Positions 44,001 to 56,237 of a DNA stretch of 64,000 bases are shown here, piece by piece. Each line of letters starts with the position of its first letter. Within the stretch, counting starts at the first letter, position 1. The notes under the pieces were generated by a model that saw only the letters and a list, made by a program, of their open reading frames with translations, had not been told where the DNA came from and ran no database searches. The position numbers and the translations under genes were made by a program. Origin of the DNA: Mesobacillus jeotgali (GTDB lineage: Bacteria; Bacillota; Bacilli; Bacillales; Cytobacillaceae); NCBI RefSeq assembly GCF_031759225.1, contig NZ_CP134494.1, positions 1,176,501 through 1,240,500 on the forward strand, read 5' to 3'.

Positions 44001-44272
44001 TGCGTGGTGCTGAAAAGCTGGCGCAGCTGAATGTAAGGCGTGAAAACTATGACTCTGCCATTCATTGGTGCCAAAAAATCCTCCACAGGGACAGAACATG
44101 GGAGGAAGCTTATCGATTGCTGATGTTTTGCTATTATCGTAAGAACAATCGTCCGCAAGCCATCCGCTGGTATAAAAAATGCAGTGAAGTGCTTGAGGAA
44201 GAACTGGGAGTCACTCCGCTGGAACCAACCAAGCATATGTATGAGATGATTATTGAAGGGCAAAATCAATAG
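41030..44272 (+). CDS. SARP-STAND transcriptional activator (MalT-like ATPase, TPR, C-terminal winged helix and BTAD)
   Basis: A 1080-residue signal-integrating regulator. Order of domains: MalT-type STAND ATPase with Walker A AGAGYGKST (about residues 44-52) and Walker B VVILDDFHAI (about 133-142); a helical, TPR-like middle (about 420-800); then an OmpR-like winged helix (LRVQALGQFRLWLGDREVE onward, about 826-915) and a bacterial transcriptional activation domain (about 935-1075, with LNLYNGDYLPERRYEDWCL and LGVTPLEPTKHMYEMI). Large Streptomyces SARPs such as AfsR have the reverse order. It is the first gene of the accessory block and probably controls the promoters at 45510 and 54654. GGGCGGAGAT precedes the ATG. 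Confidence 0.9.
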   Translation: MQGTLPLIKTKLIVPGLQEQWIRRAKLSRKMKAVSEKPLTIIQAGAGYGKSTALALHVNDQKQSCCWYTITSSDDDILPFLSYLTASIQTLFPDFGQELIPYMKKMNRYIREEELSMLSSLFINEILQIPEQIVVILDDFHAIEHSYHINVWMEKLLEHMPGHLHLVISTRTKPGWKVLAKLRAKNELNEISKTDLIFGKEEIELLLSDYYQLAISDEQIDQLYQITEGWVIAIGMIAQQLPHLQSLDDLLAEPAKSLEDLFQYLVYEVFSKQPPMIQQFLEQTSIFEEISTDICDHILGMKSSIQMLEQLTAKNLFIQQIGDSQFRYHALFREFLETRLITSQPGQYRVLMMNSAHYFEKKGQWEEALYCYEKIGQYSAAAAIMDEQGMELLEMGKLENLQERLAKIPKEDKRRYCSLLFLEGEVYRYRSLYKQAEACYEQAIQTADRMGNAEWKSKALEGKAKIYLDTIQPLKAERILAQAIELREAAMFDAAAEETGRLYRLLAENLINSGQALKAERWIERARLMGVHIEDGNLEARLYLRTGRFQEMRKILMDAKAPGHLDDKLHLPQSHRETDLLLALIEAFTGNGMQAKALSQSGIQYGIDIQAPFVEACGWIRMGHAVQLIEEYDLALAEKCYETALDIMGRLSIERGKAEPLMGLCILYGSRREYERAAEAGRKALLETEQVKDVWLSALITLCLAIASIYNDRHKEASENLHKAEGLINQCGDEYGRMLLSFWKSYYYFSLNEDEEFKSAFSSFLKLMKTGGYEFFLKKRTTFGPRDLQVFSPMLIEAVKQSIAPGYAEKLLEDLKIPRLSAHPGYTLRVQALGQFRLWLGDREVEDRDWQRGKAKELFQLFLTKRNQFLMKEDIFQILWPTHEGKNADRDFKVALNALNNVLEPARKARSTPFFIIREGTGYGINPQAAIQLDSRIFEEWAEAGLEEKNTEKSMEELERALNLYNGDYLPERRYEDWCLNERERLLVYFLRGAEKLAQLNVRRENYDSAIHWCQKILHRDRTWEEAYRLLMFCYYRKNNRPQAIRWYKKCSEVLEEELGVTPLEPTKHMYEMIIEGQNQ

Positions 44273-45509: not shown

Positions 45510-45542
45510 TGTAACTCATTTGTAACTGGCATTCTTTAAGAT
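45510..45542 (+). promoter_or_regulatory. SARP-type promoter of the Liv importer (direct repeat 11 bp apart)
   Basis: TGTAACT at 45510-45516, four bases, TGTAACT at 45521-45527, nine bases, then -10-like TAAGAT at 45537-45542. No normal -35 box is needed because the second repeat occupies that place. The same arrangement with the same spacing occurs at 54654-54686. SARP activators bind 7-bp direct repeats 11 bp apart just upstream of the -10. The binding protein gene begins 51 bases later. Confidence 0.78.
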
Positions 45543-45593
45543 GATGTCAAAGCTTGTAGGCTTTGGAATACCATTTTTAAAGGGGGAAAGGCA

Positions 45594-46838
45594 ATGAAAG
45601 CTGGTCAGCGGAATTTTGTTTTATCTTTTATGCTCATTTTGGTCTTGTTGTTTACTAGTGCCTGCAGTGGATCGGGGACAGAAAAGTCAGGAGGCACTGA
45701 AGGGAAAGAAGGGAACGATGAACCGAAGAACACAGAACCGATCAAAATTGGTGTGCTGGCTTCCCAAACGGGCGGACTTGAAGCTTATGGGAAGCAGACA
45801 CTTCGCGGTTTCGAGCTTGGCCTTGAATACGCAACGAATGGAACAAATGAAGTCGCGGGCCGTAAAATTGAATTCGTTGTTGAAGATACAGAAACCAAAC
45901 CTGAGGTAGCGGTCCAGAAAGCGACGAAACTTCTTGAAGAGGATGAAGTAGACTTCCTGGTCGGATCTTCAAGCTCAGGCGACACGCTGGCAGTTCTGCC
46001 GCTCGCTGAGGAATATGAAAAAATCATGATCGTCGAGCCGGCTGTTGCGGACAGCATCACAGGCTCTGAATTCAATGAATATATTTTCCGCACGGCACGT
46101 AACTCTTCTCAGGATGCTGTTGCGGGTGCCGCTGCAATTGCGAAGGATGGCGTGAAAATCGCAACTCTTGCACCGGATTATTCTTTTGGCCGCGATGGCG
46201 TCGCAGCCTTCAAAGAAGCAGCAGAAAAACTTGGCGCTGAAATCATCCACGAAGAATATGCAGATCCAGCTGCAACAGACTTCACTTCGAACATCCAGAA
46301 AATCATCGACCAAAAGCCGGATTACTTATTTGTCGTCTGGGCTGGGGCGAATTCTCCATGGAACCAGATTTCAGATATGAAAGTACAGGAAAAAGGAATC
46401 AAAATCTCCACAGGCGCTCCTGATATCGCAGCACTTGCAACAATGGAGCCACTTGTCGGCATGGAAGGCTTCACAGTCTATTATCATGACCTTCCGCAAA
46501 ATGATATTAATAAATGGCTTGTTGATGAACATAAAAAGCGCTTCAACGGTGAGCTTCCAGACTTATTCACACCAGGAGGCATGACTGCAGCGATGGCGAT
46601 TGTCGAAGCTTTGAAGAAAACCGAGGGTGACACGGATTCCAAGAAATTGATCGAGACAATGGAAGGGATGAGCTTTGATTCACCAAAAGGAAAAATGACC
46701 TTCCGTGAAGAGGATCATCAGGCACTTCAGGCATTATACGCAATCAAGCTCGAGAAAAAGGAAGGAGTCAACTATCCAGTTCCTGTCCTGATCCGCGAGC
46801 TCTCTCCAGAAGAAACAGCTCCGCCGATAAGGAATTAA
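45594..46838 (+). CDS. Liv-type ABC transporter substrate-binding lipoprotein
   Basis: A 414-residue periplasmic-binding-protein-like lipoprotein (type I, LivK family). The signal peptide ends LLFTSACSG (lipid Cys C24), then an acidic linker, then IKIGVLASQTGGLEAYGKQTLRGFELG, FLVGSSSSGDTLAVLPLAEEY and YIFRTARNSSQDAVAGAAAI. Family members bind leucine, other amino acids, urea or aromatic acids; those from CoA-ligase clusters often bind aromatic or alicyclic acids. It is separated from livGFHM by a dispersed repeat and a hairpin. AAAGGGGGAAAGGC precedes the ATG. Confidence 0.9.
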   Translation: MKAGQRNFVLSFMLILVLLFTSACSGSGTEKSGGTEGKEGNDEPKNTEPIKIGVLASQTGGLEAYGKQTLRGFELGLEYATNGTNEVAGRKIEFVVEDTETKPEVAVQKATKLLEEDEVDFLVGSSSSGDTLAVLPLAEEYEKIMIVEPAVADSITGSEFNEYIFRTARNSSQDAVAGAAAIAKDGVKIATLAPDYSFGRDGVAAFKEAAEKLGAEIIHEEYADPAATDFTSNIQKIIDQKPDYLFVVWAGANSPWNQISDMKVQEKGIKISTGAPDIAALATMEPLVGMEGFTVYYHDLPQNDINKWLVDEHKKRFNGELPDLFTPGGMTAAMAIVEALKKTEGDTDSKKLIETMEGMSFDSPKGKMTFREEDHQALQALYAIKLEKKEGVNYPVPVLIRELSPEETAPPIRN

Positions 46839-46864
46839 CAAGAATAATAAGATAGTATAAAATC

Positions 46865-46994
46865 ACTTCGAGAACTGTCCAGCTCCAGCGCCTAGCCCCT
46901 CGAGTCGCTTCGGTCCTGTCAATGAAGTCAAAGAACGACTTCACCGTCAGGCCCTCCAGCGCTTGTCGGGGCTGACCAAGGCGCTTCCGCTCCA
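46865..46994 (+). repeat. Dispersed structured repeat element, copy 2
   Basis: Same element as at 24129, with intact outer arms AGCGCC-TA-GCCCC and GGGGC-TGACCAA-GGCGCT and the inner hairpin GAAGTC-N6-GACTTC. It lies between the binding-protein gene and livG. The tail differs from the other copies (GCGCTTCCGCTCC instead of GCGCTTGCGCTTTT). Confidence 0.92.
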
Positions 46995-47000
46995 AATATC

Positions 47001-47042
47001 ATAATGAACTTCGGTAACTCAGCCGAAGTTCATTATGCTTTT
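47001..47042 (+). terminator. Strong hairpin between the binding-protein gene and livG
   Basis: A perfect 14-bp stem, ATAATGAACTTCGG (47001-47014) with CCGAAGTTCATTAT (47023-47036), followed by GCTTTTA. It may partly terminate or attenuate transcription, giving more binding protein than permease, as is common for ABC importers. Confidence 0.7.
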
Positions 47043-47078
47043 ACTGAAGGCGTAATTCAATCAAGGGTGGTGAAGTAG

Positions 47079-47852
47079 ATGACGGCAATTATCGAGACGA
47101 AAGACCTCAGCATTACATTTGGCGGCCATACCGCTGTTGATTCTGTCAGCATTTCAGTCCCGCATAATCATTTCAAATCAATCATCGGTCCCAACGGTGC
47201 CGGAAAAACGACTTTTTTCAACCTGTTAAGCGGGCAGCTCGTGCCGACGAAGGGACAGGTCGTGTATAAAGGCAATGACATCACAAACCTTTCTCCGACC
47301 AAAAGGACGAGGGCCGGAATCGGACGGTCCTTTCAGATCACCAATGTCTTCCCCAATTTGACGGTAATGGAAAATGTCCGTCTGGCGGTCCAGTCACATG
47401 AAGGAGTCCGCTATCAGATGCTCAGGCATTTCCGTTCTTTTAAAAAGTTTGAGGAGCAGGCAGAAGAGTGGCTGAAACTGGTCTTGCTCGATGGCAAGAA
47501 GGATGCGCTTGCGAGGAACCTTGCCCACGGTGAAAAAAGGAAGCTGGAAATAGCGATGCTGCTGGCTTTGAACACCGAAGTGCTGCTGCTTGATGAACCG
47601 ACTGCAGGCATGTCACTTGAAGAGGTTCCGGCAATCCTGGAAGTAATCAGGAAAATCAAGGAGCGCGGTGACCGGACGATCATTTTGATCGAACACAAAA
47701 TGGATATGATCATGGATCTTTCGGATTCGATCATGGTTTTATTCAATGGTGCTCTGCTTGCCGATGGGACACCGGAGGAAATCATGAAAAATGAAACGGT
47801 CCAATCTGCATATTTGGGAGGTTTGCATAGTGAGCACGCTGCTGAAGCTTGA
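47079..47852 (+). CDS. livG: Liv-type ABC transporter ATPase LivG
   Basis: A 257-residue ATPase of the LivG group. Walker A GPNGAGKTTFFNLLSG (about residues 35-50), family-typical RAGIGRSFQITNVFPNLTVMENV, signature region LAHGEKRKLEIAMLLA, Walker B VLLLDEPTAGMS and switch ILIEHKMDMI. One of two ATPases of the importer. The ATG at 47079 has GGGTGGTGAAGTAG upstream. It overlaps livF by 23 bases. Confidence 0.93.
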   Translation: MTAIIETKDLSITFGGHTAVDSVSISVPHNHFKSIIGPNGAGKTTFFNLLSGQLVPTKGQVVYKGNDITNLSPTKRTRAGIGRSFQITNVFPNLTVMENVRLAVQSHEGVRYQMLRHFRSFKKFEEQAEEWLKLVLLDGKKDALARNLAHGEKRKLEIAMLLALNTEVLLLDEPTAGMSLEEVPAILEVIRKIKERGDRTIILIEHKMDMIMDLSDSIMVLFNGALLADGTPEEIMKNETVQSAYLGGLHSEHAAEA

Positions 47853-48537
47853 CCAGGTGGAGACATTCATAGGTCAGTATCACATCCTTCAAGGCATCTC
47901 TTTTGAAGTGCCAAAGGGGGAGGTTACCGTACTGCTGGGGCGGAATGGTGCCGGCAAAACAACTACACTGAGAACAATCATGGGATTGAATCCGGCTGCA
48001 AAAGGCTCGGTTATTTTTAAAGGTGAAGAAATCAAGAGCCACCCAACCTATACGATTGCCAATAAAGGAATTGGTTATGTGCCAGAGGACCAGGGGATTT
48101 TTGCCGGGCTGAGCGTTGAGGAAAATATCAAGGTAGCAATCAAAAATGAAAATGATGAAACCCGTCAGCGGCTGGAATGGATTCTTGAGCTTTTTCCTGA
48201 CTTGAAAAAGTTCTGGAAAAAACCGGGCGGGCTTTTGAGCGGCGGCCAGAAGCAGATGCTTTCTATCGCAAGAGCCTATGTCAATGACAATGAACTGCTT
48301 TTGATCGATGAACCCAGCAAAGGCCTCGCGCCAATCATAGTGGAGAAGGTGATGGAGTCGATCCAGCAAATGAAGGATAAGACAACGATCATCCTTGTGG
48401 AACAAAACTTCATGATGGCCAGCAGTATTGGCGACAGCTTTTACATTATCGATGATGGCAGGACGGTTTCGAATGGCTCGATGAACCTCCTTCGTGAGGA
48501 CGAAGAAATGAGACGGAAATATCTCGGCATTGCCTAG
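47830..48537 (+). CDS. livF: Liv-type ABC transporter ATPase LivF
   Basis: A 235-residue ATPase of the LivF group, the usual length. Walker A GRNGAGKTTTLRTIMGL (about residues 37-53), the characteristic GIGYVPEDQGIFAGLSVEENI, signature LLSGGQKQMLSIARA, Walker B LLLIDEPSKGLAP. I chose the GTG start at 47830, eight bases after GGGAGG; this lies within the end of livG. Second ATPase of the importer; it is followed 17 bases later by livH. Confidence 0.92.
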   Translation: MSTLLKLDQVETFIGQYHILQGISFEVPKGEVTVLLGRNGAGKTTTLRTIMGLNPAAKGSVIFKGEEIKSHPTYTIANKGIGYVPEDQGIFAGLSVEENIKVAIKNENDETRQRLEWILELFPDLKKFWKKPGGLLSGGQKQMLSIARAYVNDNELLLIDEPSKGLAPIIVEKVMESIQQMKDKTTIILVEQNFMMASSIGDSFYIIDDGRTVSNGSMNLLREDEEMRRKYLGIA

Positions 48538-48554
48538 GAAAGGGGGAAGCAAGA

Positions 48555-49415
48555 GTGGATGTATTGATTAATTTAAGCCTTAACGGCCTTGCCACAGGAA
48601 TGCTGATCTTCCTCCTGGCAGCCGGTCTTACCTTGATTTTCGGCCTGATGGATGTGCTTAATTTTGCCCATGGCGGTTTGTTCGCCTGGGGTGCCTACAG
48701 CGGCATTTGGATATATTCAACAACAGGCAGCTTTTTTGCCGGGATTATCGGTGCCGTCCTGACGGGCATGATCCTTGGCATCGTCACAGAGCGCTGGATC
48801 ATCAAACCGGTTTACGGCAACCATGTACAGCAAATATTAATCACGCTCGGATTGATGCTTGTTTTATCAGAGATGTTGAAAGTAGTATGGGGCCCTAATC
48901 AGATCTCAGCGGCAACCCCTGATTACCTTTCCGGCAGCTGGGAGTTTGGCGGAATCATCATCATCAAATACCGGGTTTTCATCATTGCCGTAGGATTTGC
49001 GGTATTCCTCGCTGTTCAATATTTGCTTAAAAAGACAAAAATCGGCCTTGTCGTCCGCGCCGGTGTCATGAACAAGGAAATGGTCCAATCACTGGGTGTC
49101 AACATCCAGAGAGTATTCATGTTCGTGTTCATGATAGGAGCGGGAATGGCGGCTCTTGGCGGAATGCTTTTAGGTCCCTATTCAGGTGTGATTTATGCGG
49201 ATATGGGCATGGAGTTTGCGATCCTCGCGTTCATCGTTGTGGTCATAGGCGGAATGGGCAGCTTTACAGGCTCGGTGATGGCTGCGATTTTAGTTGGCCT
49301 GTCAGGTTCATTCATGGCCTATTATGTTCCCGACCTCGCTTTGGCAGCGAACATGCTGCTGATGGCAGTAGTGCTGATTTTCAGGCCGCAGGGCTTATTC
49401 GGGGCAAAGGGGTGA
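48555..49415 (+). CDS. livH: Liv-type ABC transporter permease LivH
   Basis: A 286-residue permease with about eight membrane segments and LivH features: GLATGMLIFLLAAGLTLIFGLMDVLNFAHGG near the N-terminus, KTKIGLVVRAGVMNKEMVQSLGVN (coupling region) and FAILAFIVVVIGGMGSFTGS. GTG start at 48555 with GGGGGAAGC before it. It forms the channel with LivM. The next gene starts five bases after its stop. Confidence 0.92.
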   Translation: MDVLINLSLNGLATGMLIFLLAAGLTLIFGLMDVLNFAHGGLFAWGAYSGIWIYSTTGSFFAGIIGAVLTGMILGIVTERWIIKPVYGNHVQQILITLGLMLVLSEMLKVVWGPNQISAATPDYLSGSWEFGGIIIIKYRVFIIAVGFAVFLAVQYLLKKTKIGLVVRAGVMNKEMVQSLGVNIQRVFMFVFMIGAGMAALGGMLLGPYSGVIYADMGMEFAILAFIVVVIGGMGSFTGSVMAAILVGLSGSFMAYYVPDLALAANMLLMAVVLIFRPQGLFGAKG

Positions 49416-49420
49416 GAAGG

Positions 49421-50431
49421 ATGACAAGATTGTTTTCAAATCGCATGAACATCTTATATTTGCTTGTCGCCGGGTTCCTGGCAGTACTTCCATTTGTCTA
49501 CGATTCCAGGAGCATGCTCATCCTGCTCTCCCAGGTGTTCATTTTTGCCGTACTGGCGATGAGCTACGACATCCTTCTCGGATACACCGGCATCGTCTCA
49601 TTCGGTCATGCGATGTTCTTCGGGATTGGGGCGTATACAGTAGGAGTCTTCATGAAAAGGTTTGAACCTGAAACAAGCTACTTTCTGCTGGCTGTCCTGG
49701 TCACGATTTTGCTGACTGCTGTCGTAAGTTATTTCGTCGGACTGCTGACACTGCGCTTGAAAAGCCACTTTTACGCGATGCTGACTATGGCCTTCGCCGG
49801 ATTGTTTTTAGTACTGGCTGAAAAATGGCGGACGGTTACTTATGGGAATGACGGCTTTACATTCAGGGTTCCGGACTTTCTGAAGGACCGCACTGACTTC
49901 TATTTGATTTGCCTCGGTTCGATGGTCCTGGTGTTCATTTTATTGAGAAGATTCACCAATTCCCCGCTTGGAAGAGTTCTTCAGGCAATAAGGGAAAATG
50001 AACAGCGCACAGAATCGCTTGGATACAGCGTATTGCAATATAAAATCATTGCCAGCGTCGTGTCTGGAGTCATTGCCGGAATTGCGGGGATTTTATATGC
50101 TGTTTCCCTCAGATTCGTGAATACAAGCGTTTTTACAATGGATATCACACTGGATGCCTTGCTGATGACGATCATTGGAGGAGTCGGGACGTTGGTCGGG
50201 GCAATCATCGGCGCGGGAATCATCGAGTTTTCCCATCACTGGCTGACTGAGCTTGCAAAGGTTCACTGGATTTTCGAAAGATGGATCATCTTTTTCGGCA
50301 TCATTTATATCCTTGCTGTCATGTTCTTCCCTCAGGGGATTGTCGGTTCCCTGCAGAAGCTGAAGTTGAGAAAGAAAGAGAAAATCAAGGTTCCGGTTGA
50401 TTCAGAGACAGTAAGCCAGGGAGATTCGTGA
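49421..50431 (+). CDS. livM: Liv-type ABC transporter permease LivM
   Basis: A 336-residue permease with about ten membrane segments and LivM motifs: SYDILLGYTGIVSFGHAMFFGIGAY, LKSHFYAMLTMAFAGLFLVL, coupling region LGRVLQAIRENEQRTESLGYS and IIGGVGTLVGAIIGAG. The start is ATG 49421, eight bases from AAAGGGG; the GTG at 49412 overlaps livH. Its stop overlaps the start of the next small gene by one base. Confidence 0.92.
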   Translation: MTRLFSNRMNILYLLVAGFLAVLPFVYDSRSMLILLSQVFIFAVLAMSYDILLGYTGIVSFGHAMFFGIGAYTVGVFMKRFEPETSYFLLAVLVTILLTAVVSYFVGLLTLRLKSHFYAMLTMAFAGLFLVLAEKWRTVTYGNDGFTFRVPDFLKDRTDFYLICLGSMVLVFILLRRFTNSPLGRVLQAIRENEQRTESLGYSVLQYKIIASVVSGVIAGIAGILYAVSLRFVNTSVFTMDITLDALLMTIIGGVGTLVGAIIGAGIIEFSHHWLTELAKVHWIFERWIIFFGIIYILAVMFFPQGIVGSLQKLKLRKKEKIKVPVDSETVSQGDS

Positions 50432-50610
50432 TGGAAACAAAGCAAGTTACTTCATTCGTTCTCCGCTTCCAGCTCACGGACATCGAAAGCGACAGCGGCA
50501 GAAAATACTGGAGGGTCAAGGTAACCCATGTGCAGGAGGAAAAAGAAGCAGTCTTTGATTCCTTAGAGTCAGCAATGGAATTCATCAAAGGTATAGTTGG
50601 AGAATCATAG
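50431..50610 (+). CDS. Small conserved-looking protein after livM (59 aa)
   Basis: A 59-residue soluble protein whose ATG overlaps the livM stop (GTGATGG), with AGGGAGA six bases upstream, so it is surely translated with the Liv operon. Sequence features: SFVLRFQLTDIESDSGRKYW and WRVKVTHVQEEKEAVFDSLE, predicted as beta strands, then a short helix AMEFIKGIV. I do not recognise the family. As the last gene of the importer operon, it could be a regulatory or chaperone subunit, but that is only a guess. Confidence 0.72.
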   Translation: METKQVTSFVLRFQLTDIESDSGRKYWRVKVTHVQEEKEAVFDSLESAMEFIKGIVGES

Positions 50611-50655
50611 AAGGGGTTTTCTTTTAAAAGTATAAACTTTTGCACTTAGATTAGT

Positions 50656-50836
50656 GTCTAGCTCCAACGCCTAGCCAGTTTTCATCGCTGTGAGTGCCTC
50701 CTCGAGTATCTTGCGAGAAGCGTTAGCTTTGAGCAGCTCGAGGTCGCTTCAGTCCTGCCAATGAAGTCAAAGAACGACTTCACTGTCAGGCCCTCCAGCG
50801 CTTGTCGGGGCTGACCAAGGCGCTTGCGCTTTTCTT
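50656..50836 (+). repeat. Dispersed structured repeat element, copy 3, with a 60-bp insertion
   Basis: Same element as at 24129, 46865 and 54531, but 60 extra bases (50677-50736) sit between CGCCTAGCC and CTCGAGGTCGCTTCAGTCC. The rest, including GAAGTC-N6-GACTTC, the GGGGCTGACCAAGGCGCT arm and the tail GCGCTTGCGCTTTTCTT, is conserved. It lies just before the KAS III-like gene. Confidence 0.9.
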
Positions 50837-50851
50837 AAAGGAGGAACCAAG

Positions 50852-51868
50852 ATGCAAATTGGCATTGTCAGTACGGGAATCTACCTTCCTGAAAACTATG
50901 TCACAGGAGCGGAAATTGCCAGGTTGGCAGGAATTCCCGAACAAGTTGTGGAAGAAAAAATGGGAATAAGGAAAAAGCCGATGCCAGGACCGGAAGACCA
51001 TACATGCGAAATGGGAATCAAGGCTGCAAGGATTGCATTGGAAAAAGCGAACCTGGATCCGTTGGACATCGACCTTGTCATCTATATTGGTGAGGAGTAC
51101 AAGGAATATCCATTATGGACAGCAGGTATTAAACTGCAGGAGGAAATCGGGGCAAGAAATGCCTGGGCCTTCGACACGGCCTTAAGATGCGGAACGACAG
51201 TGATGGCCCTGAAGCTGGCGAAGGGAATGATGGTCTCTGATCCGGCAATCAACACCGTCCTCCTCGCAGGGGGCTATCGCAATGGTGATTTCATAGATTA
51301 CCAGAATCCAAGAACACGGTTCATGTACAATCTCGGGGCAGGCGGCGGTGCGATTTTATTGCAAAAGGACCATCAGGAAAACAGGTTGCTAGAGACAGAA
51401 ATGATTACGGATGGTTCTTTTTCCGAGGATGTCGTCGTCGTTGCCGGCGGAACAAAAAATCCGATTACAGCAGAGAGCCTGGCAAGAGGCCTGTACCAGC
51501 TTGATGTACTTGATCCAGAGGGAATGAAGGAGCGGCTCGAGCAAAAGTCGATGGCCAATTTTTTAAAAGTCATCCGGCGGTCGGTGGAGAAAAGCGGTTT
51601 TTCCGAAAAAGACATCGCCTACGTCGGGATGCTTCATATGAAGCGGTCGGCACATGAATTTGTATTAAGGGAGCTGGGATTAACGGAAGAGAATTCCATC
51701 TACCTAGAAGACTTTGGGCACATTGGACAGATTGACCAGATCCTGTCTCTAGAACTGGCAGAAAAGGCAGGGAAATTAAAGGATGGAGACATTGTCGTCC
51801 TAGTCAGTGCCGGTATCGGCTATGCGTGGGGTGCGACGACTATTGTTTGGGGAAAGGGCGTGTTGTAA
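50852..51868 (+). CDS. KAS III-like (3-oxoacyl-ACP synthase III family) enzyme with altered active site
   Basis: A 338-residue thiolase-fold protein of the KAS III/FabH group. The nucleophile is C113 in FDTALRCGTTVMAL. The histidine region reads GMLHMKRSAHEF (H262) instead of the usual HQAN. The place of the catalytic Asn (YGNTSxAS in FabH) reads EDFGHIGQID, with His at 290. It therefore keeps Cys and His but lacks Asn, as seen in some non-condensing or acyl-transferring KAS III relatives. AAAGGAGGAACC precedes the ATG. It overlaps the next gene by one base. Confidence 0.85.
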   Translation: MQIGIVSTGIYLPENYVTGAEIARLAGIPEQVVEEKMGIRKKPMPGPEDHTCEMGIKAARIALEKANLDPLDIDLVIYIGEEYKEYPLWTAGIKLQEEIGARNAWAFDTALRCGTTVMALKLAKGMMVSDPAINTVLLAGGYRNGDFIDYQNPRTRFMYNLGAGGGAILLQKDHQENRLLETEMITDGSFSEDVVVVAGGTKNPITAESLARGLYQLDVLDPEGMKERLEQKSMANFLKVIRRSVEKSGFSEKDIAYVGMLHMKRSAHEFVLRELGLTEENSIYLEDFGHIGQIDQILSLELAEKAGKLKDGDIVVLVSAGIGYAWGATTIVWGKGVL

Positions 51869-52770
51869 TGGAAAAAACGGCAGTGGAAATGAAGAAGGTT
51901 GACTTGCCAAATGGGGAAACAATCGCTTATAGGGAGCGGGATGGCGGAACCAAAAATGTTCTTTTGGTCCATGGCAATATGACATCATCCAAACATTGGG
52001 ACTTGTTGATTGACGCGATTGATCCTGAATATAAAGTTTTTGCGGTGGATTTGCGGGGGTTCGGGGAGTCCAGCTATCATAAGCCAATCATGTCGATCCA
52101 GGATTTTTCCGATGATGTAAAAATGTTTGTTGATGGAATTGGGCTGAAGGATTTTGCCCTTGTAGGCTGGTCGACGGGAGGAGCGGTAGGAATGCAGTTC
52201 GCCGCTGATTACCCAGGCTATTGTGAAAAGCTTGTGCTGCTCGCTTCCGCTTCTACAAGAGGATATCCTTTCTTCGGCACAAGTGCTGAAGGCCTCCCTG
52301 ATGTGAACAACAGGCTCGTTACTTATGAGGATGTTAAGGGAGATGCTGGTAAAACGATTGCCGTACAGAGTGCTTACGACCAGCAAAATAGAGGATTTCT
52401 AAAGGCAATGTGGAATATGTTGATTTATACCGGTCGTCAGCCGGAAGAACGGCATTATGACGAGTATGTTGATGATATGCTGACACAGCGCAATCTCGCT
52501 GAAGTCTACCACTCTCTTAATACTTTTAACATCAGTGCTTTAAATAATGGCTTGAAGGATGGTACAGATCAGGTGAAGGATATCCAGATTCCTGTGCTTG
52601 TGCTCCGGGGTGACCGGGATCTAGTGGTCACTGGGAGGATGGCAGATGAAATTGTCGAGGACTTTGCAGGGCGTGCAAGGTTTGTGGAATTGAAGGATTG
52701 CGGCCATTCGCCATTAGTGGATGACCTGGATCAGCTATTGCAGCATATCGAAGGATTTTTAGCAGAGTAG
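51868..52770 (+). CDS. Alpha/beta hydrolase
   Basis: A 300-residue alpha/beta-hydrolase. Oxyanion strand VLLVHGNMTSSKHW, DLRGFGESSY, nucleophile Ser in LVGWSTGGAVGMQF (S102), Asp in VLRGDRDLVVT and His in KDCGHSPLVDDLDQL. All catalytic residues are present. The ATG overlaps the stop of the KAS III-like gene (TAATGG), so the two are translated together and probably act in consecutive steps, for example acyl transfer and thioester or ester hydrolysis. The substrate is unknown. Confidence 0.88.
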   Translation: MEKTAVEMKKVDLPNGETIAYRERDGGTKNVLLVHGNMTSSKHWDLLIDAIDPEYKVFAVDLRGFGESSYHKPIMSIQDFSDDVKMFVDGIGLKDFALVGWSTGGAVGMQFAADYPGYCEKLVLLASASTRGYPFFGTSAEGLPDVNNRLVTYEDVKGDAGKTIAVQSAYDQQNRGFLKAMWNMLIYTGRQPEERHYDEYVDDMLTQRNLAEVYHSLNTFNISALNNGLKDGTDQVKDIQIPVLVLRGDRDLVVTGRMADEIVEDFAGRARFVELKDCGHSPLVDDLDQLLQHIEGFLAE

Positions 52771-52782
52771 GAAGGTGTTTTT

Positions 52783-53523
52783 ATGAGATTGAAAGATAAA
52801 GTAGCGATTATTACAGGGGCAGCGAACGGAATCGGGCTTGCTGCAGCTAAAACTTTTGCCAGTGAAGGCGCAAGGGTTGCCATGGCGGACTTTGATGAAG
52901 AAACAGGAACCAAACGTGCGGCAGAACTGTCAGCTGAAGGCAATGATATCGCTTTTTTTCAGGTGAATGTCGCCGACAGATCCAGTGTTGATTCGCTGGT
53001 CCAAAATGTTCTCGGCCACTTTGGCAAAATTGATATTCTAATAAATAATGCAGGCATCACCAGGGATGGAATGCTGCACAAGCTCGCTGCCGAGGACTTC
53101 CAGAAAGTCGTTGATGTCAACCTGACGGGTGTGTTCAATTGTGCCCAGGCTGTTGTTCCAGCAATGGTCCAGCAAGGTTCAGGCAGAATAATCAATACAT
53201 CCTCCGTTTCCGGCGTATACGGCAATGTAGGCCAGACAAACTACGCAGCGACCAAAGCCGGAGTCGTCGGCATGACGAAAACATGGGCAAAGGAACTCGG
53301 ACGCAAAGGCATCAATGTAAACGCAGTCGCTCCGGGATTCATCGAAACGGGCATGACCGCCGCTGTGCCGGATAAAGTGATTGAACAAATGAAGATGCTC
53401 GTCCCGCTGGGAAGGCTCGGATTGCCAGAGGATATCGCACATGCCTACCTGTTCCTCGCATCAGACGAGTCAAAATACGTGAACGGCACCACCCTCCATG
53501 TCGATGGCGGGATCATGATGTGA
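52783..53523 (+). CDS. Short-chain dehydrogenase/reductase, FabG-like
   Basis: A 246-residue classical SDR. NAD(P)-binding TGAANGIG (about residues 11-18), NNAG (88-91), catalytic Ser in NTSSVSGVYG, Tyr154 and Lys158 in YAATKAGVVG, and the C-terminal YVNGTTLHVDGGIMM. The acidic residue after the second strand (ADFDEE) suggests NAD preference. FabG-like enzymes interconvert 3-oxoacyl and 3-hydroxyacyl groups. It starts 12 bases after the hydrolase gene, with GGAAGGTG upstream. Confidence 0.9.
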   Translation: MRLKDKVAIITGAANGIGLAAAKTFASEGARVAMADFDEETGTKRAAELSAEGNDIAFFQVNVADRSSVDSLVQNVLGHFGKIDILINNAGITRDGMLHKLAAEDFQKVVDVNLTGVFNCAQAVVPAMVQQGSGRIINTSSVSGVYGNVGQTNYAATKAGVVGMTKTWAKELGRKGINVNAVAPGFIETGMTAAVPDKVIEQMKMLVPLGRLGLPEDIAHAYLFLASDESKYVNGTTLHVDGGIMM

Positions 53524-53528
53524 TTTTA

Positions 53529-53556
53529 AAAAGCGCATTTGATGCGCTTTTTTATT
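53529..53556 (+). terminator. Terminator of the KAS III-hydrolase-SDR operon
   Basis: AAAAGCGCAT (53529-53538) pairs with ATGCGCTTTT (53542-53551), with further T residues. Confidence 0.88.
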
Positions 53557-53611
53557 TTGGGGTAGGTGTGGGGAGAGGAATGATTTCTATTCTATTGGAG
53601 TGTAAATTATT

Positions 53612-53960
53612 CAACCAGGAATAAAACTGCTCCAACCGGGAATAAATTTCTTTCAACCGGGAATAAATCTGCTCCAACCGGGAATATAACACCGGCAACA
53701 GGGATTAAAATGGCTTACCGGAGAATTATGCTGCAACCGTTAAGAAAATTATCCACCGTATAATAATTCGTGCCAACCATCAAATAAATCGTCTCAACCG
53801 TTAAATAATTCCTCCCAACCGTTAAAATGAACCGTCAAACCGGGAAAAATCCTCCTAACTGGTATTAAAACCGATCCAACTGGTATTAAAAATGCGCTAA
53901 CTGGTATTAAAACTGTCCCAACTGGTATTAAATCTCCTCTAACTGGCATTAAAACTAACT
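53612..53960. repeat. Array of about 17 iterons of 20-21 bp
   Basis: A CAACC or related core recurs at about 53612, 53633, 53654, 53675, 53696, 53716, 53734, 53755, 53774, 53795, 53816, 53836, 53857, 53877, 53898, 53919 and 53940. There are three sub-families in order: CAACCGGGAATAAA, then CAACCGTTAAATAA, then AACTGGTATTAAAA. It fills most of the 580-base gap between the SDR gene and the 54104 gene. Confidence 0.9.
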
Positions 53961-54103
53961 GATCCCAAGAACTTTGCCCCACGCACTCTAAAAACCAGCT
54001 AATCATATGTTCATTTTACTTTTTGAGTCCGCTGATATTCACTTCAGGATTAACTTCCCTCCAAAAGTGGTAAATGGTATTAAAAAAGGATGAGGTGCTG
54101 TAC

Positions 54104-54439
54104 ATGGAAGACACAAAGCAGAAATACTACTTTAATATAGAAAGCGGCGAGGTGCTGGACACGCCGGCTGAGCCGGAGGGCCATTTATTCACGTTGATTG
54201 CGACCGGTGAGGAGATCAAGGATTTACGGGAGTATCTGACGGAAAACTATAAAGCGGATTGGGCCACTTTTGGCAATTCCCATTTGCGCCCTTTTACCGA
54301 CCCAGACCGTGAGCATGCTGAATATGACTTTGCAATGAAGGAAATTTACGCAATGGTTTATAAACTGGGTGATGCTGAAGCCAGGAACCATGTGAAAAGT
54401 ATGGAGATATTTACAGAAGATGAGTTGAAGGGCATATAA
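54104..54439 (+). CDS. Hypothetical protein (111 aa)
   Basis: I do not recognise this family. The ATG at 54104 is preceded by GAGGTGCTGTAC; the frame opens 30 bases earlier without a better site. The protein is soluble and acidic, beginning TKQKYYFNIESGEVLDTPAE and later having TLIATGEEIKDLREYLTENY, then a helical C-terminus (YDFAMKEIYAMVYKLGDAEARNH). It is flanked by the 21-bp iterons and the fourth dispersed repeat, and has its own terminator. It may be a solitary gene rather than part of the pathway. Confidence 0.7.
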   Translation: MEDTKQKYYFNIESGEVLDTPAEPEGHLFTLIATGEEIKDLREYLTENYKADWATFGNSHLRPFTDPDREHAEYDFAMKEIYAMVYKLGDAEARNHVKSMEIFTEDELKGI

Positions 54440-54446
54440 ACTTCTG

Positions 54447-54476
54447 ACACCACGGCTGATGCTGTGGTGTTTTTTG
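54447..54476 (+). terminator. Terminator of the 54104 gene
   Basis: ACACCAC (54447-54453) pairs with GTGGTGT (54464-54470), followed by six T residues in total. Confidence 0.82.
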
Positions 54477-54530
54477 CAGTTTATAGTTATAAAATTATTT
54501 AGTTGTGGATAACTACGAGTAGTTTTCTTA

Positions 54531-54650
54531 ATCCAGCTCCAGCGCCTAGCCCCTCGAGTCGCTTCAGTCCGCCCAATGAATTCAAAGAACGACTTCACTG
54601 GTCGGCCCTCCAGCGCTTGTCGGGGCTGACCAAGGCGCTTGCGCTTTTTC
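54531..54650 (+). repeat. Dispersed structured repeat element, copy 4
   Basis: Same element as at 24129, 46865 and 50656, with intact outer arms. The inner hairpin has one change (GAATTC instead of GAAGTC). It ends only three bases before the SARP-type promoter repeats of the CoA ligase gene. Confidence 0.92.
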
Positions 54651-54653
54651 ATA

Positions 54654-54686
54654 TGTAACTAACCTGTAACTACCATCTCCTAAAAT
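54654..54686 (+). promoter_or_regulatory. SARP-type promoter of the CoA ligase gene (direct repeat 11 bp apart)
   Basis: TGTAACT at 54654-54660, four bases, TGTAACT at 54665-54671, nine bases (ACCATCTCC), then -10 TAAAAT at 54681-54686. This is the same geometry as at 45510-45542, including the CAT three bases after the second repeat and ATGA at the end of the -10. The ligase start is 33 bases downstream. Confidence 0.8.
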
Positions 54687-54719
54687 GAATCCATCAAGAC
54701 GAGAGAAGGAGAGATTGCG

Positions 54720-56237
54720 GTGAGGTGGGAGCTCGACTGGCTTGAATCTAGAGCGGGATTGACACCAGATGCAGTTGCGATTGCCGATGCAGGGACGGCT
54801 CAGGAATGGTCATACAGGGAAATCAATGATCGGGCTAAAGCAATCGCAGTGTGGCTGGGTGAAAAGGGAGTCAAAAAAGGCGACAGGGTTGCGCTGCTTG
54901 CGCCGAACGGAATCAGTTACTTTGATTTGCTGTTTGCCTGCGGCAAAATTGGCGCCATTTTTGTGCCGCTGAACTGGAGGCTGTCCCTCGATGAGCTGGC
55001 ATATATTATTAAGGATTGTGAGCCAAGGCTGCTGGCTTTCCATTCCAATTTAACAAAAGAAGTGACAATGATTTGGGATGAAGAAGACCGTTGCATTCAA
55101 ATTGATGGTTCACGATACGCTCAGCTGCTTGGCGTAACAGTTGGCCAGCTGGATGGAGAAAAAGTGGAGGAAGAAGATCCGCTCGCGATGATTTATACAG
55201 GAGGGACCACCGGAAAGCCAAAAGGAGCTGTTCTGTCACATCGCGCCATCATCTGGAACAGCGTTTCGACGATCGCCAGCTGGAATCTGACGAACGAGGA
55301 CAGAACGGTGACGTATTTACCTTTATTCCATACAGGCGGTTTGAATGCACTATCCATTCCGATCCTGATGGCCGGGGGCACCGTCGTTCTGGCCAATGAT
55401 TTCACACCGGAAAGTGCGATCAAGAACCTAATCGAACATAAGTGCACAATCGTCCTATTTGTGCCGACGATGCATCATATGTTGGTAAAAACGGATCTTT
55501 TCCAGAAGGCGGAATTCACGGATCTTAAGCTGTTTTTATCAGGAGGTGCACCGTGCCCGCTTGAAATTTATGAAGCATACAAACAGAAGGGTATCGCCTT
55601 CAAGGAGGGATATGGGCTGACAGAGGCTGGCCCGAATAATTTTTACATAGATCCTTCAGAGGCGAATGTAAAAAGAGGTTCAGTCGGCAAGCCTATGCTG
55701 TTCCATTCTATCAAGATCCTGGACGAAGCAGGGAACGAGGCTGGAGCGGACGAGGTCGGTGAACTTGCTATCAAGGGGAACCATGCCTTTTCTTATTACT
55801 GGAATAATCAGAATGCGACCGAAGACACCTTGAAGGACGGCTGGCTTTATACAGGTGACCTGGCGAAGAGAGACAGAGATGGATATTATTATATTGTTGG
55901 CAGGAAAAAAGAGATGATCATCACAGGCGGTGAAAATGTATTTCCTCTCGAGATCGAACACTGGCTCTGCTCACACCCATCGATTCACGAGGCCGCGGTC
56001 GTTGGCATCCCAGATGAAAAATGGGGAGAAGTCGTGACTGCGTTCATTGTCCTTGAAGAGGGAGCTGCTTTAGGAGAGCATGAAGCCAAAATGCATTGCA
56101 GGCAGAAGCTCGCCGGCTATAAAGTACCGAAAGTTATCCAAACTATTGGCCATATGCCGAAGACGCATGTAGGCAAAATCGATAAAAAGAAACTGCGGGA
56201 AGTCGCTCTCTCTGCATCGGGCCATAAGCCTGTTTGA
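54720..56237 (+). CDS. AMP-forming acyl-CoA synthetase/ligase
   Basis: A 505-residue ANL-superfamily ligase. Motifs: [20 protein letters not shown] (A3), KEGYGLTEAGPNNFY (A5), YTGDLAKRDRDGYYYIVGRKKEMIITGGENVFP (A7-A8, about residues 378-410) and the catalytic Lys in PKTHVGKIDKKKLRE (A10). It would activate a carboxylic acid with ATP and CoA. GTG start at 54720 with AAGGAGAG upstream. Its promoter carries the same direct repeats as the Liv importer, which suggests that it activates the imported acid. Confidence 0.9.
   Translation: MRWELDWLESRAGLTPDAVAIADAGTAQEWSYREINDRAKAIAVWLGEKGVKKGDRVALLAPNGISYFDLLFACGKIGAIFVPLNWRLSLDELAYIIKDCEPRLLAFHSNLTKEVTMIWDEEDRCIQIDGSRYAQLLGVTVGQLDGEKVEEEDPLAMIYTGGTTGKPKGAVLSHRAIIWNSVSTIASWNLTNEDRTVTYLPLFHTGGLNALSIPILMAGGTVVLANDFTPESAIKNLIEHKCTIVLFVPTMHHMLVKTDLFQKAEFTDLKLFLSGGAPCPLEIYEAYKQKGIAFKEGYGLTEAGPNNFYIDPSEANVKRGSVGKPMLFHSIKILDEAGNEAGADEVGELAIKGNHAFSYYWNNQNATEDTLKDGWLYTGDLAKRDRDGYYYIVGRKKEMIITGGENVFPLEIEHWLCSHPSIHEAAVVGIPDEKWGEVVTAFIVLEEGAALGEHEAKMHCRQKLAGYKVPKVIQTIGHMPKTHVGKIDKKKLREVALSASGHKPV

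Follow-up and report, generated by a model that had tools for sequence, protein, structure and literature searches.

A MalT-like regulator with a SARP-type output domain and its two candidate operators in a predicted polyhydroxybutyrate-scavenging regulon of Bacillales

The stretch of Mesobacillus jeotgali DNA analysed here (64 kb of contig NZ_CP134494.1, called the window) encodes a large regulator, named after its gene start the 41030 regulator, and behind it an ABC importer, a KAS III/thiolase-like enzyme (KS3), a PhaZ-like hydrolase, a short-chain dehydrogenase (SDR) and an acyl-CoA ligase (LIG). The motif TGTAACT-N4-TGTAACT-N9-TAARAT occurs in this window twice, at 45510 before the gene of the substrate-binding protein (SBP) of the importer and at 54654 before the ligase gene, and we refer to the two sites as P1 and P2. 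The two boxes are very probably landing sites of the neighbouring activator, and comparative genomics strongly backs one shared regulator for importer and ligase. From genome comparison, we consider it likely that P1 and P2 are operators of the 41030 regulator, a MalT-like activator with a SARP output, and that its regulon serves the scavenging of extracellular polyhydroxybutyrate (PHB). Grounds for a regulon are the sequence, model similarity, conservation and the link of the box with both regulator and depolymerase genes; binding, activation, substrate, inducer and the order of the enzymes are what we infer from them. The link to PHB goes beyond an earlier sequence-only reading of this DNA, which had proposed that a SARP-type regulator turns on import and CoA activation together.

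Both motif copies are found exactly as that reading had described them, with a repeat period of 11 bp and the same distance to the -10 element. A start codon follows each within 51 bases (ATG 45594, 51 bases behind the end of the P1 motif; GTG 54720, 33 bases behind that of P2), and the regulator gene, which ends at 44272, lies 1.24 kb upstream of the first site, as had been noted. The window has no third copy of the repeat pair, again in agreement with the sequence-only reading, and this is true even if 3 mismatches are allowed. In the whole genome of 4,634,919 bases only P1 and P2 are exact, and 14 more sites have 1 or 2 mismatches. The sole one-mismatch site (G000:632607) was rejected; it lies within an open frame of 154 amino acids, and a -10 at the proper spacing is missing there. 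Could the boxes be chance, or ordinary sigma-A promoter sequence? With 3 mismatches allowed, shuffles predict 3.25 matches for the window and 2 are present, so that loose motif counts are uninformative and the signal is exactness. The exact repeat pair, in contrast, occurs twice in the window and in none of 100 shuffled windows, and a consensus sigma-70 scan lists no promoter at P1 or P2, as expected for promoters that have a -10 without a -35. With conservation across the order and in ortholog promoters contradicting it as well, the probability of such an origin is negligible.

The box is tightly linked to the regulator. We used 193 genomes of the family and 397 drawn from the order, with 16 family genomes in both samples. 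By our sorting of the hits, 82 family genomes have a full-length regulator and 6 a fragmentary one; the corresponding numbers for the order sample are 95 and 4. Some of the genomes counted as non-carriers encode other MalT- or BTAD-like proteins, and a few (G044, G113) retain short remnants. A strict pattern, TGTAACY-N4-TGTAACY-N9-TAWNAT, is present in 76 of 88 family carriers versus 0 of 105 non-carriers, and in 44 of 99 carriers versus 0 of 298 non-carriers of the order sample. The reversed pattern, used as a control, gave 1 site in the 193 family genomes and none in the 397. The genome-wide scan that the sequence-only reading had proposed does not return random matches: most genomes with the strict pattern have it twice, and almost all sites are at this cluster. 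Outside the family, where 80 of the 85 full-length carriers were scanned without the -10 requirement, the box is found in 77 (158 sites versus 13 reversed-control matches), which indicates that the -10 varies, and two of the three carriers that miss an exact box (G334, G453) have one-mismatch boxes in L139 and L137, respectively. Carriers include Mesobacillus, Neobacillus, Cytobacillus, Sutcliffiella, Virgibacillus, Ornithinibacillus, Rossellomorea, Peribacillus and Oceanobacillus, and in the genus of the window 19 of 21 genomes have the regulator. Among 112 genomes sampled from the phylum, four besides that of the window encode full-length or nearly full-length homologs (34-38% identity).

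Clusters that persist without the regulator provide a negative control. In 80 of the 105 non-carrier family genomes, SBP homologs were found in 18 (70-83% identical) and PhaZ homologs in 6 (42-67%), and in these 24 loci, each roughly 4 kb long, no box with up to one mismatch was found. The SBP-Liv-PhaZ-LIG cluster occurs without the regulator in G003, G007 and G031 and PhaZ-LIG in G004, and the respective stretches of 11-16 kb lack a box even with up to two mismatches. Hence, the box follows the regulator and not the target genes, and the comparison of orthologous promoters bears out the sequence-only reading: the repeats are kept with the regulator and are missing where the cluster persists without it. 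In the two genomes examined of the other 15 with an SBP homolog (G044, G096), the importer is part of a related cluster that includes a TetR-type gene; importers of this type may therefore be paralogs and weaker controls. A TetR-type gene, a second CoA ligase and a second KAS III-like gene also stand beside the importer or a homologous importer in L106, L318, L320 and L321. PhoP-type winged helix-turn-helix (wHTH) domains bind direct repeats with an 11-bp period, and PhoP is general in Bacillaceae. The boxes might accordingly be bound by PhoP or another regulator of the OmpR/PhoB family, and by sequence the nearest domains to the wHTH of the 41030 regulator are those of PhoB type, so that boxes of the SARP and PhoB families can look alike. 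Nevertheless, such a general regulator is hard to reconcile with a strict box missing from every non-carrier in both samples and with the same clusters standing there without a box, and we regard this explanation as highly improbable.

If the boxes are operators of the 41030 regulator, they should keep their place in orthologous promoters. We compared 100 ortholog loci with regulators 34-96% identical, 60 from the 88 carriers in the family and 40 from the 85 genomes outside it that have the full-length regulator; in 76 of the loci all nine genes (SBP, LivGFHM, KS3, PhaZ, SDR, LIG) lie on the strand of the regulator. A box, called at up to one mismatch and up to 260 bp before a gene, precedes SBP in all 93 loci where SBP was found on the regulator's strand (none was found there in 7) and LIG in 80 of 88 (none in 12); repeat conservation is partly built into these counts, because the repeats were a selection criterion, but the -10 was not. 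Counted from the first box base, the -10 positions T28, A29 and T33 are kept at fixed spacing in 94-100% of the promoters, and A40, 7 bases past the -10, in 96% of the 93 SBP promoters and 88% of the LIG promoters. With A40 taken as the presumed +1, the box would lie at -39 to -18. The loci, 1.98 Mb in sum, contain 167 exact sites, 91 before SBP and 71 before LIG. Three of the remaining ones precede KS3, SDR or PhaZ, one (L094) precedes a secreted depolymerase and is the same box as in L146, and one, in L132, precedes a stretch without an SBP match of sufficient length. Six of the eight unboxed LIG genes begin no more than 52 bp after the gene before them, whose transcript they thus probably share, while boxed LIG genes keep a gap of at least 57 bp (median 256 bp). 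In none of the 100 loci do the 300 bp upstream of the regulator gene contain an exact box, so that the regulator does not seem to control itself via the box. Doubled boxes, one of them with one mismatch, were observed before the SBP gene in L141:5304-5387 and L142:5361-5469, and additional one-mismatch boxes in L139.

The architecture of the regulator fits operators of this kind. Its N-terminal half matches the MalT model NF003420 over residues 7-494 with 236 bits, far below the cut-off of 537 bits; the NTPase is presumably of STAND type. It is followed by a tetratricopeptide (TPR) region, and PF03704 (BTAD) matches residues 933-1074 with 77.8 bits. Where MalT and LAL proteins end in a LuxR-type HTH, a BTAD domain is found, and hence we do not file the protein as a MalT. 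The C-terminal 275 residues were aligned with 26 orthologs and modelled (mean pLDDT 90.8, pTM 0.84), and judged by this model they are a SARP domain, an OmpR-type winged helix followed by a BTA domain: in Foldseek AfsR is the best match (E 4.6e-11) and EmbR the next (1.9e-9), and the top structures are AfsR in its transcription complex (8k60, 8hvr; TM 0.71-0.72). A sequence profile of this part reaches AfsR over 23-271 (E 9.5e-8), outscored by engineered or designed TPR proteins on account of the TPR part, and the wHTH alone finds PhoB-type chains and not AfsR. In the large SARPs AfsR and PimR the module is N-terminal (PMC10936776, PMC5930380), while here it occupies about residues 820-1077 of 1080. 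We therefore claim a SARP-type output domain and not a classical large SARP.

What the regulon is for is suggested by the depolymerase genes. A secreted PHB depolymerase over cut-off is encoded in 18 of the 193 family genomes. Taking the best gene per genome, 6 of the 10 carriers have a box upstream of it, compared with 0 of the 8 non-carriers, and the six boxed genes are the six highest-scoring. Outside the family, where 17 of the 80 carriers have such a gene, the box is found in 15 of these genomes and before 16 of 18 genes. In the pooled data, 21 of 27 carriers versus 0 of 8 non-carriers have the box (Fisher p 1.3e-4), and the chance of a box with up to one mismatch in 300 bp is about 2e-4 if equal base use is assumed. 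Distal boxes of G073 and G011 also precede secreted PHB depolymerases. For carriers that do not belong to the family, we fetched 18 stretches with a distal exact box, which cover part of the sites (those of G390 are left out). Eight have the box before a secreted PHB depolymerase (L176, L179-L182, L188-L190) and two before a ligase gene (L192, L193). In L177 (G513) an exact box at 1524-1541 precedes a citrate/methylcitrate synthase and MmgE/PrpD gene pair, which would fit propionyl-CoA from hydroxyvalerate units; as a single case we make no use of it. The box in L192:577-2922 (G449) stands before genes for a 418-residue protein, which resembles lipases only in weak Pfam matches under the cut-off, and for an alpha/beta hydrolase. 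L183 and L184, from two genomes of one genus, have nearly the same exact box in the same place, at the end of one gene and before another, and since they are alike and share the gene setting, these boxes are perhaps not chance.

The boxes could belong to the regulator and the pathway still degrade another acyl substrate, such as a branched, hydroxylated or aromatic acid, with PHB depolymerases as a side member. The importer type is indeed broad (branched-chain amino acids or urea), the ligase stays below the cut-offs of its best 25 NCBIfam models, L056-L058 lack KS3, PhaZ and SDR within the fetched stretch, and a secreted depolymerase over cut-off is missing from 63 of the 80 carriers that are not of the family. 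We hold this to be unlikely, since PhaZ exceeds an equivalog cut-off, boxes outside the cluster repeatedly precede secreted PHB depolymerases and the reduced locus L134 combines box, PhaZ, SDR and thiolase. Olefin synthesis of the OleABCD type had been considered and was dropped once the hydrolase exceeded the cut-off for polyhydroxyalkanoate (PHA) depolymerases. Still less probable is a regulon with which the cell would turn over a PHB store of its own. In favour of it, the family of the hydrolase bears the name intracellular PHA depolymerase, and the PHA synthase model TIGR01836 matches 131 of the 193 family genomes at E 1e-60, 44 of them over cut-off. However, an importer and secreted depolymerases are ill-suited to a store, and at the same threshold TIGR01836 matches 0 of the 21 genomes in the genus of the window, 19 of which carry the regulator (class I/II synthases were not searched). 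A role of PhaZ in an own store is thus unlikely there, and these bacteria probably use foreign PHB instead, as their gene content suggests.

Several observations weigh against the proposed PHB-scavenging regulon. The strict pattern misses 55 of the 99 carriers in the order sample, PF00486 (OmpR-type wHTH) gave no match to the regulator at E 0.001, and the two other unboxed LIG genes are not close behind another gene: that of L082 has a box with two mismatches and that of L094 is unexplained. Seven of the 18 distal-box stretches (L178, L183-L187, L191) show no PHB-related gene, and we judge their boxes to be chance or unexplained. The lower-scoring depolymerases of carriers G065, G066, G102 and G157 (best gene per genome only) have no box, and none is near the depolymerases of G244 and G562. 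The depolymerase contrast is partly confounded by gene lineage, because the non-carrier depolymerases are the lower-scoring group. Finally, the genome of the window has no secreted depolymerase over the family cut-off, so that PHB as substrate rests on relatives; the M. jeotgali strain may live on oligomers freed by others. On balance we lean towards a regulon that is ancient and spans the order, and whose MalT-like sensor, joined in reversed order to a SARP output, would sense 3-hydroxybutyrate or its oligomers and drive the chain from depolymerase to CoA ester. The assembly of MalT is controlled by a ligand, maltotriose, and the MalT-like front half may likewise sense a ligand and control assembly. 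Two protomers, each with its SARP domain on one of the 7-bp repeats, would sit next to each other at a distance of one helical turn, and the bound regulator would recruit RNA polymerase to promoters with a usable -10 and no -35. A secreted depolymerase, in some genomes, would cut the polymer, the importer would take in 3-hydroxybutyrate or short oligomers, the PhaZ-like hydrolase would split the latter, the ligase would turn the acid into its CoA ester, and SDR and KS3 would lead on to acetyl-CoA.

Table 1. Features of the regulator, the candidate operators and the cluster in the window.
Feature	Position	Strand	Remarks
Regulator, 1080 aa	41030..44272	+	MalT-like NTPase, TPR region, C-terminal SARP-type DNA-binding and BTAD domain
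P1 operator (predicted), TGTAACT-N4-TGTAACT	45510..45527	+	TGTAACTCATTTGTAACT-GGCATTCTT-TAAGAT; whole motif ends at 45542
P1 -10 element TAAGAT	45537..45542	+	Fixed 9-base spacing; predicted transcription start A at 45549
SBP, substrate-binding protein of branched-chain-amino-acid/urea-type ABC importer	45594..46838	+	PF13458; UrtA/LivK models below cut-off
Importer ATPases and permeases	47079..50431	+	Each gene found in 93-95 of 100 ortholog loci
LivG	47079-47852	+	Importer component
LivF	about 47791-48537	+	Named by position and tblastn only
LivH	48555-49415	+	Importer component
LivM	49412-50431	+	Importer component
KS3, KAS III/thiolase-like enzyme	50852..51868	+	NF005308 PRK06840, 530 bits (cut-off 315)
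PhaZ-like alpha/beta hydrolase, putative member of intracellular short-chain PHA depolymerase family	51862..52770	+	NF050089 i_nPHAscl, 455.9 bits (cut-off 300)
SDR, FabG/PhaB-like short-chain dehydrogenase	52783..53523	+	NF004198, 318.7 bits (cut-off 296)
Predicted terminator, end of P1 operon	53528..53552	+	11-pair stem and T run
P2 operator (predicted), TGTAACT-N4-TGTAACT	54654..54671	+	TGTAACTAACCTGTAACT-ACCATCTCC-TAAAAT; whole motif ends at 54686
P2 -10 element TAAAAT	54681..54686	+	Predicted transcription start A at 54693
LIG, AMP-forming acyl-CoA ligase	54720..56237	+	PF00501/PF13193; best 25 NCBIfam models all below cut-offs

The cluster has further features between its genes. Terminator-like sites across the region number 13 against 11.8 in shuffles and are thus not above shuffles. 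A terminator-like hairpin of 16 pairs at 47000-47037, between the SBP gene and LivG, perhaps raises SBP over the rest of the importer. A dispersed repeat of 114 bases has three intergenic copies (46878-46991, 50717-50830, 54532-54645); the later two are 75% and 91% identical to the first, and the third ends 8 bases before the P2 operator. The gap between SDR and ligase contains at 53610-53958 an array of imperfect 21-base units, first CAACCGGGAATAAA-like and then CAACTGGTATTAAAA-like, and at 54074-54439 an open reading frame of 121 amino acids that is shared by every locus fetched from the genus (17 of 17) and by L059, and for which no Pfam or NCBIfam match was found at E 0.001.

In the cited papers, SARPs are actinomycete regulators, mostly of antibiotic genes (PMC10936776, PMC5930380, PMC10972967), and their operators are heptamer direct repeats with an 11-bp period (PMC10936776, PMC5930380), the arrangement that the candidate operators also have. 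The closest known system is AfsR of Streptomyces coelicolor, which shares SARP DNA-binding and BTA fold, NTPase/NOD and TPR parts, 11-bp direct repeats and a box over the -35 region; the afs box lies at -40 to -19 from the start (PMC10936776), nearly equal to the position here, where the start is a prediction and the box is followed by a fixed N9 up to the -10 in aligned promoters. AfsR, however, controls antibiotics in an actinomycete, while carbon scavenging in Bacillales is proposed for the 41030 regulator. SARP-LAL proteins of the PimR type likewise combine a SARP part with a large ATP-binding region and heptamer repeats with 4-nt spacers, but the heptamer is CGGCAAG and the targets are antibiotic or antifungal clusters; the main PimR operator is described as an exception to overlap with the -35 (PMC5930380). 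PhaR/AniA (PMC12542648) and PhaQ of Bacillus cereus (PMC7236355) control PHB-related genes too, but these concern own PHB synthesis and store, and by their descriptions in the text available none is of SARP type. A term search in the available text of a SARP review gave neither Bacillus nor Firmicutes (PMC10972967), and titles and abstract beginnings in the open PMC literature, a scope outside which subscription papers and bioRxiv fall, gave nothing on a SARP regulon in Bacillales, on MalT with BTAD or on regulation of PHB scavenging there. The parts are of known kinds; the novelty lies in the reversed order of the domains, in the hosts and the role, and in operators that are defined.

A SARP-type output domain on the opposite end of a MalT-like protein appears to run carbon scavenging across many families of Bacillales. 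The candidate operators are defined to the base, and the regulon predicts which genes are co-regulated for PHB use and yields a candidate sensor and importer for 3-hydroxybutyrate; the two promoters may be usable for biosensors of bioplastic breakdown. If this is true, it would be a SARP system outside the actinomycetes that is devoted to the digestion of a natural polyester.

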